Shown here: positions 24,806 to 39,467 of the stretch, one piece after another
Position numbering within the stretch: the first letter of the stretch is position 1
Layout of the letters: every line of letters starts with the position of its first letter
Assembly (NCBI GenBank): GCA_021851875.1
Contig: JAJZQI010000017.1
Span: 1-42,028, forward strand
Source of the DNA: Pseudomonadota bacterium
GTDB taxonomy: Bacteria > Pseudomonadota > Gammaproteobacteria > Burkholderiales > JAJZQI01
DNA length: 42,028 nucleotides
Direction of reading: 5' to 3'
Notes under the pieces: generated by a model
Database searches by the model: none
What the model saw: only the letters and a program-made list of their open reading frames with translations
What the model was told of the DNA's origin: nothing
Made by a program: the position numbers and the translations under genes

Positions 24806-25303
24806 ATGCGCATACTGGGCATAACGGGGTATTCCGGCAGCGGCAAAACGACCTTGCTGGAGCAGCTGCTTCCCTGGCTGGCAGAGCAGGGACTGACCGT
24901 TTCGGTGGTCAAGCAGACGCATCACGATGTGGACCTGGATCAGCCGGGCAAAGACTCATGGCGCCACCGCGAGGCCGGGGCGCAGGAAGTCATGCTGGTG
25001 TCCGACCGACGCTGGGCCTTGTTGGCAGAGTTGCGCGAGCAGCCGCGTCCGCCGCTGAGCGAATTATTGGCCCATATGAGCCAAGTGGATCTGGTGCTGC
25101 TCGAAGGCTTCAAGCACGAATCAGTCGACATGATCGAAGTGTACCGGCCTTCTCTGGGCAAGCCGCTGTTGCAGCCCGCCAACCCGCACATCATTGCCGT
25201 TGCAACCGATTTCGTTGGCTTGACAGTCGACGTTGCAGTGCTTGATATCAATAACATTCCGCAAATCGGACAGTTCGTCATGGAAGTTGCAAGGCAGGTA
25301 TGA
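24806..25303 (+). CDS. mobB: Molybdopterin-guanine dinucleotide biosynthesis adaptor MobB
   Basis: A protein of 165 residues. The P-loop GYSGSGKTT (8-16), VKQTHHDVDLDQPGKDSWRHREAGA and LVLLEGFKHE are diagnostic of MobB. It is a GTP-binding partner of MobA in attaching GMP to molybdopterin; it helps but is not essential in E. coli. mobA is not in the window. It is the first gene of a five-gene operon, and its stop overlaps moeA (ATGA). Confidence 0.93.
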   Translation: MRILGITGYSGSGKTTLLEQLLPWLAEQGLTVSVVKQTHHDVDLDQPGKDSWRHREAGAQEVMLVSDRRWALLAELREQPRPPLSELLAHMSQVDLVLLEGFKHESVDMIEVYRPSLGKPLLQPANPHIIAVATDFVGLTVDVAVLDINNIPQIGQFVMEVARQV

Positions 25304-26523
25304 AAAAAGAACCCATGCTCAGCGTAGAAGAGGCGCTGGATAAGATGCTCAAGGCCGTCGCGCCGATGATCCGGACCGAAAAAGTCATGACTTTGCAGGC
25401 GCTGGACCGCGTTCTGGCGGATGATGTGCTGTCGTTCATCACCGTTCCTTCATTCGACAATTCCGCCATGGACGGTTACGCCGTCCGTCTGGCCGATTTT
25501 ACGGGCGACATGCCGCAGCGGCTGCCGGTTTCCCAGCGCATCGCCGCAGGTCGCCCGGGCGAGCCGCTGCAGGCGGGCACGGCGGCGCGCATCTTCACCG
25601 GCGCACCCATTCCTGCCGGGGCCGATGCGGTGGTCATGCAAGAGGACTGCAGCGCAGAAGGCGACGCTGTGCTGGTCAACAAAATGCCCAAAGCCGGCAG
25701 TCACATCCGCCGTGCCGGCGAGGACATGCGCGCAGGCGAGGTCGTTCTGACAGCCGGAACGCGGCTGACACCGGCCCATATGGGCGTCGCCGCGGCCGGC
25801 GGGCAAGCCAAGATCGTGGTCCGGCCGCGTTTGCGTGTGGCCGTGTTCTATACCGGTGATGAAATCGTGATGCCCGGCGAATCGCTCAAGCCCGGCCAGA
25901 TCTACAATTCCAACCGCTTCAGCCTGACGGGATTACTGCAGCGCTACGGCGTTGAACTGGTGGATTACGGCATCGTGCCTGACAAGCTGGAGACGACTCG
26001 CGCCGTGCTGGAACGTGCGGCTGACTCTGCCGACCTGGTCATTACCAGCGGCGGTGTCTCGGTGGGCGAAGAGGACCATGTCCGCGCGGCTGTCGAGTCG
26101 CTCGGTCAGCTCGATTTGTGGCGCATCGCCATGAAACCGGGCAAACCGCTGGCTTTCGGGCGAGTGGGGCAGACCCCGTTCGTCGGCCTGCCCGGCAATC
26201 CGGTTTCCACCTATGTCACCTTTTTGCTGTTCGTGTTGCCACTGCTGCGAAAACTGCAGGGCGAAACGGCCAAAGCGCAAATTGCCTACCCTGTGGCCGC
26301 CGGGTTCGACTGGCCGGTGGCGGGCAAACGGCGGGAATATCTGCGTGCCCGTTTGGAGGTGTCCACCTCGGGTGAACTCACGGCAGTCATTTTCCCCAAC
26401 CAAGGTTCGGGAGTGCTGACTTCTGCCGCGTGGGCAGAAGGTCTCATCGATATTCCGGTCGACCAGACCATTAAGGCGGGCGACAAAGTGTCGTTCATGC
26501 CGTTTTCTGGAATGCACCCATGA
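25300..26523 (+). CDS. moeA: Molybdopterin molybdenumtransferase MoeA
   Basis: A protein of 407 residues. Conserved blocks include FDNSAMDGYAVR (domain I), GRPGEPLQAGTAARIFTGAPIPAGADAVVMQE, FYTGDEIV, IYNSNRFSLTGLL, TSGGVSVGEEDHV and GLPGNPVSTYVTF. It inserts molybdate into adenylylated molybdopterin in the cytoplasm. It overlaps mobB upstream and moaD downstream by 4 bases each. Confidence 0.95.
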   Translation: MKKEPMLSVEEALDKMLKAVAPMIRTEKVMTLQALDRVLADDVLSFITVPSFDNSAMDGYAVRLADFTGDMPQRLPVSQRIAAGRPGEPLQAGTAARIFTGAPIPAGADAVVMQEDCSAEGDAVLVNKMPKAGSHIRRAGEDMRAGEVVLTAGTRLTPAHMGVAAAGGQAKIVVRPRLRVAVFYTGDEIVMPGESLKPGQIYNSNRFSLTGLLQRYGVELVDYGIVPDKLETTRAVLERAADSADLVITSGGVSVGEEDHVRAAVESLGQLDLWRIAMKPGKPLAFGRVGQTPFVGLPGNPVSTYVTFLLFVLPLLRKLQGETAKAQIAYPVAAGFDWPVAGKRREYLRARLEVSTSGELTAVIFPNQGSGVLTSAAWAEGLIDIPVDQTIKAGDKVSFMPFSGMHP

Positions 26524-30277: not shown

Positions 30278-30312
30278 GGCCGCAGCATTTATCTTTCACC
30301 GTGGAGGGAATT

Positions 30313-33300
30313 ATGCAAGTCACCAGACGGCAGTTCTTCAAGATCTGCGCCGCCGGGCTAGGCAGCTCCAGCCTGGTCATGATGGGCTTTTCGCCCACCG
30401 AGGCACTCGCAGAAGTGCGGCAATACAAGCTGTCGCGCACCACTGAAACCCGCAACACCTGTCCCTATTGCTCGGTCGGTTGTGGCATCCTGATGTATGG
30501 TCTGGGTGACAAGGCCAAAAATGTCCAAGCCGAAATCATCCATATCGAAGGCGATCCGGATCACCCGGTCAATCGCGGCACGCTGTGTCCCAAGGGCGCC
30601 GGTCTGCTGGATTTTGTCCACAGTCCCAATCGCCTGCGTTACCCGGAGTATCGCGCGGCCGGTTCCAATGAATGGAAGCGTATTTCCTGGGATGAGGCAT
30701 TTACCCGAATTGCGCGTCTGGTAAAAGACGATCGCGACAAGAATTTCATTGCCAAGAATGCCGACGGTGCAACCGTGAATCGCTGGTTGAGCACCGGTTT
30801 CCTGGCCGCTTCTGCATCCAGCAATGAATCAGGTTATCTGACCCACAAGGTTGTGCGCAGTCTGGGTATACTCGGTTTCGACAATCAGGCGCGTGTTTGA
30901 CACGGACCTACGGTGGCAGGTCTTGCCCCTACGTTCGGTCGCGGTGCCATGACCAATCATTGGGTCGATATCAAAAATGCGGATCTGATTCTGATCATGG
31001 GCGGCAATGCCGCAGAGGCGCACCCGTGCGGTTTTAAATGGGTGACGGAAGCCAAGGCGCAGCGCAAAGCCAGGCTGGTGGTGGTTGATCCGCGCTTTAC
31101 CCGTTCTGCCTCGGTGGCGGATTATTACGCGCCGATCCGGGCTGGCAGCGACATCGCCTTTCTCGGCGGGGTGATCAACTATCTGCTGACCCACGACAAA
31201 ATCCAGCACGAGTACGTCAAGGCGTATACCGATGCGACATTCGTTGTACGCGAGGACTACACGTTCGAAAACGGCATGTTCTCCGGCTACAACGAGGCCA
31301 AACGCTCATACGACAAAGCGACCTGGATGTACGAACTGGATAAGGACGGCTATGCCATTTCCGATCCGGCGCTGCAGAATCCGCGTTGTGTCTTCAATCT
31401 GATGAAGCGGCATTACGCACGTTACACACCGGAGGTCGTTAGCAACATTACCGGTACGCCCAGGGACCAATTCCTCAAGGTCTGTGAAACCATTGCCACC
31501 TGTTCAGCGCCCAACAAGGTCATGACCATCATGTATGCCCTGGGATGGACACAGCATTCTGTCGGTTCGCAAATCATCCGTACGGGCGCCATGCTGCAGC
31601 TGCTGCTGGGCAATATTGGTATGGCTGGGGGCGGCATGAACGCCTTGCGCGGCCACTCCAATATCCAGGGGTTGACCGATCTGGGCTTGCTGTCGAATCT
31701 GCTGCCGGGCTACATGACTCTGCCAGGTGAGAAAGAGACCGATTTCCAGACGTATCTCGACAAACGGGCGCTCAAGCCTTTGCGTCCGGGGCAGATGAGC
31801 TACTGGCAGAACTATCCCAAGTTCCATGTCAGTCTGATGAAAGCCTGGTTCGGCGATGCGGCCACCAGGGAAAACAATTTCTGTTTCGACTGGTTGCCCA
31901 AGCTCGACAAGGTACACGATGTCCTGCAGGTATTCGAGGACATGAATCAGGGCAAGATGAATGGTTACTTCTGTCAGGGTTTCAACCCGCTGGCTTCGTT
32001 CCCCAACAAAGCCAAAGTGGGCGGTGCGCTGGCCAAGCTGAAGTATCTGGTCATCATTGATCCGCTGGTGACCGAAACCTCGACCTTCTGGGAGAATCAC
32101 GGTGAATTCAATGATGTCGATCCAGCAAAGATTCAGACCGAGGTATTCCGCCTGCCTTCCACCTGTTTTGCCGAGGAAGACGGTTCGTTGGTGAACAGCG
32201 GCCGCTGGCTGCAGTGGCACTACAAGGGGGCTGAGCCTCCGGGCGAGGCCAGGGGCGACAATGAAATCATGGCCGGCCTCTTCACCAAGCTGAAGGAGTT
32301 GTACAAGAAAGAGGGCGGGGCTTTCCCCGACCCGATTCTCAATCTGACATGGGGCTACAAGATCCCTCATGCTCCTGCGGCGGAGGAATTGGCTCGGGAA
32401 TTCAACGGCAAGGCGCTGGCTGATTTGACCGATGCGAAGGATCCGGCCAAGGTGCTGGTCAAGGCCGGCGAGCAGTTGGCGAGTTTTGCCCAGTTGCGTG
32501 ACGATGGTTCGACCGCATGCGGTTGCTGGATTTTCTCAGGCTCCTGGACCGACAAGGGCAACCAGATGGCGCGGCGTGACAGTTCCGATCCGAGTGGTTT
32601 GGGCAATACCCTCAATTGGGCCTGGGCATGGCCGGTTAACCGGCGGGTGCTGTACAACCGCGCATCGCTTGATCCCGCGGGCAAACCGTGGGATCCGCAG
32701 CGCAAGCTGATCGGCTGGGACGGCGCGAAGTGGGGCGGTACCGACGTGCCCGACTTCAAGCCGGATGTGCCGCCGGGCGATCCGATGAATCCGTTCATTA
32801 TGAATCCGGAAGGCGTGGCGCGGCTGTTTGCCATCGACAAGATGGCGGAAGGCCCGTTCCCCGAGCACTACGAGCCATTCGAGACGCCGATCGACACCAA
32901 CCCGATGCACCCGGGTGTCATCAGCAATCCGGCTGCGCGTGTGTTCAAAGGCGATATGGAAGCATTCGGCAAGGCCAAGGAGTTTCCCTATGTGGCAACG
33001 ACTTACCGCCTGACCGAACACTTTCACTATTGGACCAAGCATGCCCGTATCAATGCGGTGCTGCAGCCGGAACAGTTCATCGAAATCGGTGAGGAATTGG
33101 CGCAGGCCAAGGGTATCAAGGCGGGCGACAAGGTCAAGGTCCGTTCCAACCGTGGGTATATCAAGGCGGTTGCCGTGGTCACCAAGCGTATCCGCGCGCT
33201 GGAAGTGGCTGGCAAGAAGGTACATACCGTCGGCGTACCGATTCACTGGGGCTTCCAGGGGCTGGCCAAAAACGGTTTCCTGACCAATACCCTGACGCCG

Positions 33301-33369
33301 GTCGTGGGCGATGCCAACACTCAGACACCCGAGTTCAAGGCATTTCTCGTCGACATCGAGAAAGTGTAA
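30313..33369 (+). CDS. fdnG: Formate dehydrogenase-N alpha subunit, selenocysteine-containing (TGA at 30898-30900 read through)
   Basis: A protein of 1018 residues when the in-frame TGA is read as selenocysteine 196. ATG at 30313 follows GGAGGG. The twin-arginine signal is RRQFFK. C50, C53, C57 and C92 bind a [4Fe-4S] cluster. The active-site context NQARV-Sec-HGPTVAGLAPTFGRGAMTNHW and residue number match E. coli FdnG, and similarity runs to the end (GDANTQTPEFKAFLVDIEKV). The enzyme oxidises formate in the periplasm with a bis-MGD molybdenum (or tungsten) centre ligated by Sec. Without readthrough the product would be a 195-residue fragment. fdnH follows after 12 bases. It could equally be called FdoG. 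Confidence 0.96.
30898..30940 (+). promoter_or_regulatory. Bacterial SECIS element within fdnG
   Basis: Directly after the TGA: GG (30912-30913), a bulged U (30914), stem GGCA/TGCC (30915-30918 with 30924-30927), loop GGTCT (30919-30923), then CC (30928-30929). The bulged U and the GU in the apical loop are the bases read by SelB in E. coli fdhF and fdnG, and the UGA-to-bulge distance (U at +14) is the same as in E. coli fdhF. Confidence 0.92.
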
Positions 33370-33381
33370 GGAGAGCGCGCC

Positions 33382-34254
33382 ATGTCAATGCAATCATTGG
33401 ATATTCAACGCCGCTCTGCGACGACAACACCTTCTCCCGATGCACGGCAGACGCTGGAAGTGGCCAAACTGATCGATGTCTCCAAGTGCATCGGCTGCAA
33501 GGCCTGCCAGTCGGCCTGCATGGAGTGGAACGACCTGCGTGATGAAGTGGGCAGCAACGCCGGCATTTACGACAACCCGCGCGATCTGTCCGACCAGTCG
33601 TGGACAGTGATGCGTTTTTCCGAGGTGGAAGTTCAGCAGGGCAAGCTTGAATGGCTTATCCGCAAGGACGGCTGCATGCACTGCGCCGATCCCGGCTGCC
33701 TTAAAGCCTGTCCGTCGCCGGGCGCTATTGTGCAATACAGCAATGGCATCGTCGATTTCCATGAGGAAAACTGTATCGGTTGCGGTTATTGCATCACCGG
33801 TTGTCCTTTCAATGTCCCGCGCATTTCCCAGAAGGACAACAAGGCCTACAAGTGCACCCTGTGCTCGGACCGGGTCGCCGTGGGGCAGGAGCCGGCCTGT
33901 GTCAAAACCTGTCCGACTGGCGCCATCGTGTTCGGCAGCAAGGAGGACATGATCGATCACGCGCAGGAGCGTATTGCCGATCTCAAGGAACGCGGTTATG
34001 ACAATGCCGGACTGTATGATCCGCAAGGGGTGGGCGGTACGCACGTGATGTACGTGCTGCAGCATGCCGACCAACCTGAGCTGTACCATGGCTTGCCGAA
34101 AGATCCGCATATCAGCCCCATGGTCGGTTTGTGGAAGGGGATAGCCAAACCGCTGATGAGCTTTGGTCTGGGACTTGTGGCGCTGGCAGGGTTCTTCCAC
34201 TACATCAAGGTGGGTCCGAAGGAAGTGCCCGAGGACGAGGAAACCGAGAGCTAG
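33382..34254 (+). CDS. fdnH: Formate dehydrogenase-N beta (iron-sulfur) subunit
   Basis: A protein of 290 residues. Four [4Fe-4S] clusters are indicated by [52 protein letters not shown] and [26 protein letters not shown] single C-terminal helix ([32 protein letters not shown]) anchors it to the membrane. No signal peptide is present: it would be exported with FdnG by Tat. It carries electrons from the Mo site to the haem subunit. Confidence 0.96.
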
Positions 34255-34323: not shown

Positions 34324-34959
34324 ATGAGTCACTCTGCAAAACTGGTCACTCGCTACACCGCGCCTGAGCGCGTCAACCACTGGTTTGTGACGATCACGTT
34401 TGTGATGCTGGCATTCAGTGGTCTGGCGTTATTTCACCCGGCGTTTTTCTTTCTCACCAATCTGTTCGGCGGCGGTCCGTGGACACGCATCCTGCACCCT
34501 TTCATCGGTGTGGTAATGTTCGTATCCTTCATGGCGTTCGCTCTGCGGATGTTGAAATACAACCACATTACGCCGGCAGATAAACAATGGCTGGCGCGTT
34601 TGCCTGATATCGTGCGCAATCACGATGACAACCTGCCGGAAATCGGCAAATACAACATCGGTCAGAAATATCTGTTCTGGACGCTGATCATCACGATTGT
34701 GTTGTTGCTGATTTCTGGCATCGTGATCTGGCAACCGTATTTCGCACCTAAATTCTCCATTGATATGGTGCGGCTCGCGGTTTTGGTTCATGCGTTTGCT
34801 GCATTTGTTGCCATTGCGTCGATCATGGTGCATGTTTCCGCTGCCATCTGGGTCAAGGGTTCGGTTCGCGCCATGACGCGCGGCACGGTTACAGCCGCCT
34901 GGGCGCGTCACCACCATGGACAATGGTATAAGGAAATTGCAAAAGGGAGCGGCAAATAG
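34324..34959 (+). CDS. fdnI: Formate dehydrogenase-N gamma subunit, cytochrome b556
   Basis: A protein of 211 residues with four transmembrane helices. RYTAPERVNHWFVTITFVMLAFSGLALFHP has the first haem-ligand His. LHPFIGVVMFVSFMAF and VLVHAFAAFVAIASIMVHVSAAIW supply the others, and GSVRAMTRGTVTAAWARHHHGQWY is the conserved cytoplasmic tail. It passes electrons to the quinone pool. AAGGAG lies six bases before the ATG. Confidence 0.95.
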   Translation: MSHSAKLVTRYTAPERVNHWFVTITFVMLAFSGLALFHPAFFFLTNLFGGGPWTRILHPFIGVVMFVSFMAFALRMLKYNHITPADKQWLARLPDIVRNHDDNLPEIGKYNIGQKYLFWTLIITIVLLLISGIVIWQPYFAPKFSIDMVRLAVLVHAFAAFVAIASIMVHVSAAIWVKGSVRAMTRGTVTAAWARHHHGQWYKEIAKGSGK

Positions 34960-35882
34960 TGACAGCCAGCATCATTCAGCCGGGTGAAATCCAGCCTGCC
35001 GGCGTTGAGGCACCGTTCATCCGCCTGCCGGAGCAGGCAATTTTCAGCCGTCGGTCCGAGCGCTTCAAGTTTCTGGCGCAGGGCCATGCCATGGCCGATT
35101 ACCTGAAATTCATGGCGCATATCGCCGCGGCGCAGCAGCAGGCGCTCGCAGCCATGCCTCAACCATCCTTGCCCGATGCCGGGCAGTTGAGCCTTTGCCG
35201 GCAACATGGCATGCCGCCGCTGACTGCGCAGTCCTGGCCGCGCGAGCGGGACTGGCAAGTGGCTCTGCGGCAGATCGTCGGCGAAGTCCAGCCTGATGCA
35301 CGTCAGGCCACGCGCAGCGCCATAGAACGGCTTGCCTCGGCCGACTCGAATTGGCTCGAAGCACAGGCCGGCCATCTGCTTGCCAGTCGTTATGACCAGT
35401 TGGATCTGGCTGCGGCGCCGTTCATCGGTGCGGCTCTGCAGGTGTATTGGGTGGCCATGGCTACGGCGCTCGGGTTGTCAGCATTCGGCCGCACTGACAA
35501 CCCGACTTTGTGTCCCGTCTGTGCCTCTGCCCCAGTCGCCAGCGTTGTTCGCATCGGCGGTGAAGAGCAGGGTTTGCGTTACCTGCATTGTTCCTTGTGT
35601 GAAGCGGAATGGCACATGGTGCGGGTCAAATGCAGCAGCTGCGAGTCCACCAAGGGCATCGCCTATTTCGCCGTAGAGGGCAGTTCGGGTGCCGTTAAGG
35701 CGGAAACATGCGATGAATGTCACAGCTACCTGAAGGTCATGTACATGGAGCGCGATCATCTTGTCGATCCTGTGGCCGATGATCTGGCGACCCTGGCGCT
35801 GGACATTCTGCTCGATGAAAAAGGTTACATGCGCAGCGGCCCCAACCTGCTGCTCATTCCGTCGGCCGATTCGCCAACCTGA
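34959..35882 (+). CDS. fdhE: Formate dehydrogenase accessory protein FdhE
   Basis: A protein of 307 residues with a GTG start overlapping the fdnI stop by 1 base. The C-terminal half (about 185-255) has four CxxC pairs, CPVC, CSLC, CSSC and CDEC, a rubredoxin-like iron-binding arrangement. FdhE is a cytoplasmic maturation factor that acts on FdnG/FdoG before Tat export. The N-terminal half is helical and less conserved. Confidence 0.94.
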   Translation: MTASIIQPGEIQPAGVEAPFIRLPEQAIFSRRSERFKFLAQGHAMADYLKFMAHIAAAQQQALAAMPQPSLPDAGQLSLCRQHGMPPLTAQSWPRERDWQVALRQIVGEVQPDARQATRSAIERLASADSNWLEAQAGHLLASRYDQLDLAAAPFIGAALQVYWVAMATALGLSAFGRTDNPTLCPVCASAPVASVVRIGGEEQGLRYLHCSLCEAEWHMVRVKCSSCESTKGIAYFAVEGSSGAVKAETCDECHSYLKVMYMERDHLVDPVADDLATLALDILLDEKGYMRSGPNLLLIPSADSPT

Positions 35883-35999: not shown

Positions 36000-37430
36000 T
36001 TGCCAGCACACACAGCACAGCACGACGGCTTTTCCCGCTTGCCGTCAGTAGACAGGATTCTCGCCTTGCCGGGCAATGAGCCCTTGCTGGCCGAGTTCGG
36101 CAGGACGCTCGTGGTGCAGTCGGTGCGAGGAGAACTGCAGCGCTTACGCCAGCAGAGCGAAGCGGCTGTTTTGTCCCTGCCGCGCGAGCAACTCGAAACA
36201 TTCATCAGCGATCGGGTGAGATTCCTTCTCAGGCAAGGTTCCCAGCCTGCTTTACGCGCGGTCTTCAATCTTACCGGCACCGTGCTGCATACCAATCTCG
36301 GTCGCGCCCTGCTGCCGCAACAGGCGGTCGATGCCGTCATGCAAGCCATGTCGCGGCCCTGCAATCTGGAGTACGACCTGACTGACGGCCACCGCGGTGA
36401 TCGGGATGACCTGGTCGAGCCGCTGTTGCAGGAGCTCACCGGCGCCGCTGCCGCCACAGTGGTCAACAATAACGCCGCGGCGGTCTTCCTGGCACTCAAC
36501 AGTCTGGGTTTGCGCAAGGAAGTGGTCGTTTCGCGTGGCGAACTGGTCGAAATCGGCGGTTCCTTCAGGGTGCCGGACATCATGGCACGGGCAGGCTGCC
36601 GTCTGCGCGAAATTGGCACAACCAACCGCACCCACCTGCACGATTTTGAGCAGGCTATCGGGCCGCGTACGGCCATGCTGCTCAAGGTGCACACGAGCAA
36701 TTACGCCATTCAGGGCTTTACCAAAGCCGTGCCGGAGAGCGATCTCGCGGCACTTGCCCGGCGCCATGATGTACCCTTCATGGTTGATCTCGGCAGCGGC
36801 ACGCTGATCAACCTGCAAAAATGGGGTTTGCCGAAAGAGCCGACGCCGGAGGAAACGCTGGCGCAGGGTGCCGATGTGGTGACGTTTAGCGGCGATAAAC
36901 TGCTGGGCGGGCCGCAGTGTGGCATCATCGTTGGTCACGCCGATCTGATCAAGAAAATCAAAAAAAATCCGCTCAAACGGGCGCTGCGGGTTGATAAGAT
37001 GACCTTTGCTGCGCTGGAAGCCGTGCTTCGTCTCTATCGCGATCCGGATTCATTGAGTCAGACCCTGCCGGTGCTGCGTCTGCTGACGCGGCCTTTCGCT
37101 TCAATTCAGCAAACCGCGCAGATGGTCCTCCCCGTCATGCAGGCCCACTTGGCTGAGCAGGCCGCAGTCGGCTTGCGTCCCTGCTTGAGCCAGATCGGCA
37201 GCGGCTCCCTGCCGGTTGATCTGCTCCCCAGTCTGTGCGTTGCCATTGCCCCTTTGCAGAAAGGGCGGGGCGAGGGGGCCATGCTGAAAAAAATCGAACA
37301 GGCCTTTCGTGATTTGCCCGTTCCGGTTGTCGGCCGCATTAATGAAGGCGCGTTCTGTCTCGATATGCGCTGCCTCGAAACGGCCGGGGTGACCGAATTT
37401 ATCGAACAACTCGGGCAGTTGGCCATATGA
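36000..37430 (+). CDS. selA: L-seryl-tRNA(Sec) selenium transferase SelA
   Basis: A protein of 476 residues. The TTG at 36000 is the only start that keeps the conserved N-terminus ([10 protein letters not shown]); AAAGGA lies about 11 bases ahead. [63 protein letters not shown] and GTTNRTH are SelA hallmarks. K300 in [11 protein letters not shown] holds pyridoxal phosphate. It converts Ser-tRNA(Sec) to Sec-tRNA(Sec) using selenophosphate from SelD, whose gene is not in the window. The 117-base AT-rich gap upstream may hold a promoter; no clear element was seen. Confidence 0.96.
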
Positions 37431-39334
37431 TCATCGGCACTGCAGGCCATATCGACCACGGCAAGACGTCGCTGGTGAAGGCATTGACCGGTGTTGATGC
37501 CGACCGTTTGAAAGAGGAAAAGGCCCGCGGCATTACCCTCGATCTGGGTTATGCCTATAAGCCGCTTGCGAACGGTGAAGTGCTGGGGTTTGTTGATGTT
37601 CCCGGACACGAAAAACTGATTCATAACATGCTCGCCGGCGCGACGGGTATCGACTTCGTGCTTTTGGTCATCGCTGCGGACGATGGTCCCATGCCGCAGA
37701 CGCGCGAACACCTGGCCATTCTTCAATTGCTCGGCTTGGCCAGAGGCGCCGTGGTGCTGAGCAAAATTGACCGAGTCTCCCCCGAGCGCCTCGCTGCCGC
37801 ACAGGCAGAAATAAGTGCCTTGTTGCGCGCGACGTCTTTACAGGACTCTCCCGTATTGGGTGTGTCTTCCGTTACCGGGCAGGGCATTGCAGAACTGCAG
37901 GCCTATCTGGAAAACCGGGCCGGGCAAACAACCTTAAGCCAGGGCGATGGCCATTTTCGTCTGGCGATCGATCGCGCATTTACACTCTCCGGCACCGGAA
38001 CCGTGGTCACCGGTACCGCCCACAGCGGACAGGTGAAAATTGGCGACAATTTGGTCATTTCGCCCAGCGGACTGCCGGTAAAGGTACGCGGCATTCACAC
38101 GCAGAACCAGCCGGCCGAGTCGGGCAGGGCAGGCCAGCGCTGCGCCATTAACATTACCGGCCAGCGCCTGCAAAAAGACGATATTGCTCGCGGCGATTGG
38201 GTACTGGCCGCCCCGGTTCATTCCCCTGTGCAGCGTTTCGATGTCCTGCTGCACATCGTTGCCACCGAGGAACGGGCCTTCCGTCACTGGACGCCCGTAC
38301 ACCTGCATATCGGCGCGCGCGACGTCATGGCGCGGGTGTCCCTGCTGCAGGGTGAAACTGTTCAGCCCGGGCAATCGGTTCTGGCGCAATTGGTTACCGA
38401 CCAGCCTGTCGGCACTCTGGCCGGGGATCGTTTCGTCTTGCGCGACCAGTCCGCTACACGGACGCTGGGCGGCGGGCAGGTGCTGGATATTTTTCCGCCC
38501 ACTCGCAACCGTCGTACCCCGGCCCGCCTTGCCCTGCTGCAACACTGCGCCGGCAATCATTTCGATGCAATCGTCGCCGCCCTGCTGGAGCAAAGCCCGA
38601 CGGGCGTCGATCTCAACCGGCTGGCAGTCAACTGGAACCGTTCCGGTGAAGACATGCAACAGCTGTACCCACACCCGCCCATGCGCGTTGTTAATACGGC
38701 CGCCACTTCGCTCGCCTTTGCCGAGCGTGCCTGGTTGCAATTGGGCGAGAGCATCGTCGCCGGCCTCACTCGTCTGCACGAACAGGAACCGGACAGCCTC
38801 GGAGCGGGTCGTGAACGCCTGCGGCGTTTGACCCAGCCAGCCCTGGCAGCCGAGGCCTTCAATCAGCAAATTGATGAGTTGCTGATTGAAGGCCGGCTGA
38901 CACAAAGCGGTCCCTGGCTGCACCTGCCCGGTCACAAGGTGAGATTAAGTTCTGTCGAGCAAGTCGACTGGGAAAAAATCCGCCCGCTGCTTGATCAGCA
39001 GCCATTCGAACCGCCGCGTGTGCGTGATATTGCCCGCAGCCTGCAGCAGGAAGAGAGCCGGGTGCGCCAGTTGCTCAAGCGCGTGGCCCGCACCGGTGAA
39101 GTCTATCTGGTTGCGCACGATCATTATTTCACCTGTCAGGCTGTCAGCCAGTTGGCGCAGATTGCCGGCAAACAGGCCAGGGATAGCGGCATGGTCAAGG
39201 CGGCCGAATTCCGCGACCTGATCGGCACCGGCCGCAAGCTGGCCATTCAGATACTGGAATTTTTCGATCGGACCGGCTTTACCCGCCGGACGGGCGACGA
39301 GCATCGGTTGCGGCAAAACGCGCCGATGCCATAA
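37427..39334 (+). CDS. selB: Selenocysteine-specific elongation factor SelB
   Basis: A protein of 635 residues whose ATG overlaps the selA stop (ATGA). The GTPase domain has GHIDHGKTS (G1), [14 protein letters not shown] (G3) and LSKID (G4). EF-Tu-like beta-barrel domains follow, and the C-terminal third is made of winged-helix repeats ([54 protein letters not shown]) that bind the SECIS hairpin. It delivers Sec-tRNA(Sec) to UGA in fdnG. Confidence 0.96.
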
Positions 39335-39370: not shown

Positions 39371-39467
39371 GGAAGAGATTCGTTCCCCGGTGGGGCGGCC
39401 GGACTTCAAATCCGGTAAGGGCTGTCAGTCGGTTCTTGGTGGGTTCGACTCCCACTCTCTTCCGCCA
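39371..39467 (+). tRNA. selC: tRNA-Sec (anticodon TCA)
   Basis: 97 bases including encoded CCA. The acceptor stem is 8 bp (GGAAGAGA/TCTCTTCC) with discriminator G, the anticodon stem CCGGA/TCCGG with loop CTTCAAA (TCA at 39406-39408), a long variable arm, and T loop GGGTTCGACTCCC. The 8-bp acceptor, long extra arm and TCA anticodon identify selC. It starts 36 bases after selB and may be co-transcribed. Confidence 0.97.

Follow-up and report, generated by a model that had tools for sequence, protein, structure and literature searches.

The TGA at positions 30898-30900 of the window, the 42,028-nucleotide stretch of DNA analysed here, almost certainly, judging from its sequence, specifies selenocysteine in fdnG, the gene for the alpha subunit of a formate dehydrogenase. 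The gene (30313-33369, forward strand), located in a 2.68-Mb genome of 52 contigs, encodes 1018 residues when its in-frame TGA is read as U. This TGA is the only internal one and, counted from the ATG at 30313, corresponds to codon 196, the position given in the initial annotation. That annotation had also expected automatic calling to split the gene, and the standard-code ORF list does break it into one frame of 199 aa that starts at an upstream GTG (30301..30900) and another of 818 aa (30913..33369). The features discussed below are the following.

30313..33369, forward strand: fdnG (fdnG/fdoG type), formate dehydrogenase alpha subunit, 1018 aa, with in-frame UGA as predicted Sec196 (translation; TIGR01553; 1kqf)
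30898..30900, forward strand: predicted UGA selenocysteine codon 196 (translation; 1kqf column; TGA in 119/125 homologous rows)
30895..30953, forward strand: bacterial SECIS element, Rfam SECIS_3 (78 bits, gathering 63)
30912..30929, forward strand: apical part of the SECIS, made of GG, bulged U 30914, GGCA, loop GGUCU 30919-30923, UGCC and CC (fold and comparison)
33382..34254, forward strand: fdnH, formate dehydrogenase beta subunit, Fe-S (TIGR01582, 473.9 bits, cut-off 334.7)
34324..34959, forward strand: fdnI, formate dehydrogenase gamma subunit, cytochrome b (TIGR01583, 195 bits, cut-off 115.85)
34959..35882, forward strand: fdhE, formate dehydrogenase accessory protein (TIGR01562, 330 bits, cut-off 187.65)
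36000..37430, forward strand: selA, L-seryl-tRNA(Sec) selenium transferase (TIGR00474, 581.5 bits, cut-off 267.9; PF03841)
37427..39334, forward strand: selB, selenocysteine-specific elongation factor with C-terminal winged-helix domains (TIGR00475, 494.9 bits, cut-off 242.25; PF09106, PF21214, PF09107)
39371..39467, forward strand: selC, tRNA-Sec, anticodon TCA (ARAGORN; RF01852, 73.5 bits, gathering 47)

The fdnG product matches TIGR01553 (formate dehydrogenase-N alpha subunit) with 1555.4 bits, against a cut-off of 814.2. Alignment to FdnG proteins, proposed in the initial annotation as a check, places residues 1-1017 on E. coli FdnG (PDB 1kqf chain A, E = 0), and codon 196 faces the non-standard residue X of that chain, within RV-X-HGPTV. 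We take this X to be selenocysteine, and the assignment of codon 196 to the Sec position of E. coli FdnG is borne out. The UGA thus occupies the active-site column that characterizes selenocysteine-containing formate dehydrogenase N/O alpha subunits. E. coli FdnG and its paralogue FdoG belong to the same family over their full length and carry a non-standard residue at this column. In addition, PDB chains related to the product bear the name 'selenocysteine-containing'. The product begins with MQVTRRQFFK, which presumably resembles a twin-arginine leader. About 4 kb upstream of fdnG, mobB and moeA (24806-26523, forward strand), involved in molybdenum cofactor synthesis, fit with the molybdopterin enzyme encoded by fdnG. 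Other molybdopterin oxidoreductases were considered as Sec enzymes and rejected: two of the six PF00384 matches in the genome correspond to fdnG, and the other four have no internal stop.

At codon 196, the 125 homologous rows, which include the window itself and some genomes counted twice, contain 119 TGA, 4 TGT and 2 TGC, the six Cys rows corresponding to three genomes. When collapsed to distinct 59-base segments, the rows leave 55 with TGA and 3 with a Cys codon. TGA is also found at this position in 80/80 named loci, the best 80 of 594 and hence biased towards close relatives. Among these, the closest by fdnG is a proteobacterial MAG (L014; 95% over residues 1-1018), followed by two MAGs and a Sulfuriferula MAG (L015-L017; 78-79%) and by Sulfuricella (L019; 77%), all identities referring to the best aligned segment. 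Taxonomy look-up places Sulfuriferula in the Betaproteobacteria, Nitrosomonadales, Sulfuricellaceae. Three loci labelled Nitrospirae, Oryzomonas and Acetobacteraceae (L018, L025 and L065) carry a similar TGA-bearing fdnG with 72-78% identity, which may reflect either misbinned contigs or an island acquired by horizontal transfer.

The TGA might also stand in place of a cysteine or another sense codon through an error in assembly or in sequencing, the latter raised in the initial annotation as a possible refutation, and a source genome in 52 contigs makes isolated errors possible in principle. Against this, the same TGA is kept in the fdnG of a same-genus genome (G001), which has 2688/3054 bases (88%) in common with the window and differs at 366; the closest named relative carries this gene without a single difference (3054/3054 bases), and the two were counted as one. 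The presence of TGA in all 80 of the best 80 of 594 named loci argues in the same direction, as does the absence of the loop bases G23 U24, described below and present in the window, from the three relatives with a Cys codon. An error at this codon is therefore very improbable.

A hairpin sits directly 3' of the in-frame UGA. In the fold of 30898-30940, GG/CC carries a GGCA/UGCC stem with one bulged U, closed by a GGUCU loop, which begins 18 nt after the UGA and has G at loop positions 1 and 2. The bulged U is base 17, with the U of UGA as base 1, that is, +14 after the codon; both this position and the GU within the loop agree with what the initial annotation had described. Rfam RF01989 (SECIS_3) matches 30895-30953 over model positions 1-59 of 59 with 78 bits (E 6.9e-17), above the gathering score of 63 that the curators set for this bacterial SECIS element, and this match is the only one returned by a search of the whole genome. 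The SECIS_2 match at fdnG scores 41.6 bits, below the cut-off of 70. The combination of the six apical pairs with U17 and G23 U24, a feature set defined on the fdnG hairpin itself, occurs at 1 of the 1334 TGA triplets that the two strands of the window contain, namely the fdnG TGA, and in 3609 of 200000 (1.8%) sequences that encode the same peptide with randomly chosen synonymous codons.

The stability of the hairpin, on the other hand, was rejected as proof of a SECIS, because shuffled sequences and synonymous recodings are equally stable. The minimum free energy is unremarkable (-12.7 kcal/mol for 30901-30937): equally stable shuffles were obtained in 98/200 cases for 30890-30945, 19/200 for 30898-30940 and 17/200 for 30901-30937, and 6458 of 20000 synonymous recodings of a 45-base segment fold equally well. 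Folding of 30890-30945, the test suggested initially, thus does not discriminate when taken alone.

Comparison across homologs speaks for a functional hairpin. The loop bases G23 U24 are present in 55/55 distinct TGA segments versus 0/3 Cys-codon segments. U17 is kept in all 58 distinct segments, the three Cys rows included, and lies at the centre of a valine codon as well, so that it provides no independent evidence. Among the 55 distinct TGA segments, pair 21-27 is A-U in 39, C-G in 15 and G-C in 1, and pair 18-30 is G-C in 48, A-U in 6 and G-U in 1. Since, in the window's reading, the bases of both pairs all fall at third codon positions, the covariation does not change the encoded amino acids. 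Over 31 hand-picked rows, 186/186 cells of the six apical pairs hold a base pair (100% paired), against 37-66% for slid control structures; the covariation score was reached by 0/500 shuffles, while the number of covarying pairs (two) was matched by 89/500. All 16 pairs of the window structure taken together pair in 79.4% of the cells of these 31 rows, and four lower-stem pairs are unpaired in 25, 19, 24 and 24 of them. The full 16-pair stem was consequently rejected as the conserved structure: the apical six pairs are found in 31/31 picked rows and the lower stem is mixed. The initial annotation had spoken of a 'textbook' SECIS; for the lower stem, which relatives keep poorly, the term is slightly generous. 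Finally, third positions of four-fold codons have a mean entropy of 0.77 bits inside the element (7 codons) and 1.35 outside (32 codons), and this lower variation is significant over 104 distinct rows (one-sided Mann-Whitney P 0.0009).

These data also bear on whether fdnG could be a pseudogene, or two genes, with the TGA as a true stop and the downstream frame restarting from 30913. The two frames of the standard-code ORF list are what would be expected. However, the split coincides with the Sec column, with conserved protein sequence to either side of the TGA; distant bacteria retain the codon, the loop and the covarying pairs, and the decoding genes adjoin fdnG. A disrupted or bipartite gene is thus hardly credible.

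The genome contains all four genes of the Sec-decoding trait, with selA, selB and selC in the window and selD elsewhere, so that the genes needed for reading the codon are there. SelD is encoded on another contig (C38; 430.8 bits) and is of the Cys type: its sequence GGGCGCK, which we take to be the SelD active site, has Cys at the position in question and there is no internal stop. SelD was accordingly rejected as a second selenoprotein. On the same contig, selD lies divergently beside mnmH (tRNA 2-selenouridine synthase; 500.9 bits, cut-off 266), which makes tRNA a probable further use of selenium in this bacterium. Two genome matches to tRNA-Sec exceed the Rfam cut-off, and ARAGORN supports only that of the window as tRNA-Sec; the other, on contig C9 (49.8 bits, barely above the cut-off), was rejected, as ARAGORN assigns it to tRNA-Ser. 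Elsewhere in the window, a SelO-family protein adenylyltransferase (PF02696; 18632-20107, reverse strand) ends with VSCSS followed by a TGA stop and looks like a Cys form.

A reading of the TGA as another amino acid, through tryptophan insertion or near-cognate suppression, is scarcely worth entertaining: we found no support for it, the tRNA-Sec with its TCA anticodon, selA, selB, selD and the SECIS are all present, and the homologous rows that lack TGA encode Cys there and never Trp. A selenocysteine codon thus accounts best for the TGA. Given the presence of the selA, selB, tRNA-Sec and selD genes, lack of a readthrough product, which the initial annotation had set as a refutation, would be unlikely.

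The order and orientation fdnH-fdnI-fdhE-selA-selB-selC of the window recurs in 52 of the best 80 of 594 named loci. Two further loci (L017 and L024) have the same order with selC reversed relative to fdnG, unlike the remaining loci having selC, and in one locus selA was undetected. In the examined stretch of the other 25 of these 80 loci, selC was not found; five of them have selA and selB and one has selB alone. Some of these 25 stretches are short through contig ends, and others, such as the enterobacterial ones, mostly are not.

Within the order, 36/150 genomes match FdnG at the E-value used. Of these, 28 have one TGA (one of them, G031, being a fragment), 3 have a full-length homolog without stop and 5 are distant. 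The distant matches (G006, G020, G090, G143 and G148) start only from about residue 350, with 43-48% identity and no internal stop reported. SelB is above the cut-off in 42/150 genomes of the order. According to a cross-tabulation made by hand, it is found in 27/28 TGA genomes (in G141 only with pieces joined), in 0/3 genomes with a full-length homolog without stop, that is, the Cys ones, and in 2/5 distant ones. The only TGA genome without SelB above the cut-off is G001, which is 85% complete.

E. coli carries a pair of genes of this type, fdnG and fdoG. In agreement with this, 5377/5426 E. coli genomes match the fdnG DNA, with a median of two places each and ~70% identity for the best. The E. 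coli locus of the comparison (L081) has TGA at codon 196 and a SECIS-like segment, as in the window. Its loop is AGUCU instead of GGUCU, and bases of the lower stem also differ. Moreover, selA, selB and selC were not found within <=10 kb on each side of the E. coli locus, whereas all three adjoin fdnG in the window. The E. coli locus has fdhE behind the formate dehydrogenase genes, which presumably marks it as fdoGHI-fdhE, and we take the position of fdhE after fdnI in the window to be the same fdo order. For the gamma subunit of the window, PRK10639 (cytochrome b556 subunit) gives 244.4 bits and PRK10179 (FDH-N gamma) 197.1, each below its cut-off (341 and 339).

The association of fdnG with the sel genes is an already known system, published in 2006 (PMC1794560), and in this respect the finding is ordinary. 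According to that survey, selA, selB and selC form similar operons in all the Sec-decoding Alpha-/Betaproteobacteria and Pseudomonadales that it covered, next to fdhA, their sole selenoprotein gene (Zhang et al. 2006, PMC1794560). The window shares selA-selB-selC next to a formate dehydrogenase gene with the fdhA-selA-selB-selC island as outlined there, and we found no essential difference from that outline.

Starting from what is directly observed, namely the codon, its frame, the hairpin sequence with its comparative conservation and the presence of the machinery genes, a mechanism can be proposed by inference from E. coli. In E. coli, SelA is described as charging tRNA-Sec with selenophosphate supplied by SelD, and SelB as delivering it to the ribosome and recognizing the hairpin, so that UGA is decoded as Sec (PMC13188914). 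Bacterial SelB is also described as contacting bulged-out bases and the terminal loop of the SECIS (PMC11881835). In the present case, SelB would carry Sec-tRNA(Sec) and GTP to the hairpin 3' of the UGA, which its winged-helix end would bind during translation, and codon 196 would direct the insertion of Sec instead of release. The molybdenum (or tungsten) bis-MGD centre would then have Sec196 as a ligand, in an enzyme that may be an exported, membrane-bound formate dehydrogenase of the FdnGHI type oxidizing formate.

More tentatively, it is possible, though rather doubtful, that selection in this lineage acts on the apical SECIS alone (six pairs, bulged U and GU loop), the lower stem, variable among relatives, being of little weight in Sec insertion, and that Sec decoding may be retained in the genome for the sake of fdnG only. 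If true, apical-only selection and upkeep of Sec decoding for a single gene would extend known ideas and make no break with them. Overall, an arrangement already known is confirmed here for a relative of Sulfuriferula and Sulfuricella, and no new question arises. Its consequence for this bacterium is that fdnG needs to be annotated as one selenoprotein gene; otherwise its formate dehydrogenase would be overlooked.
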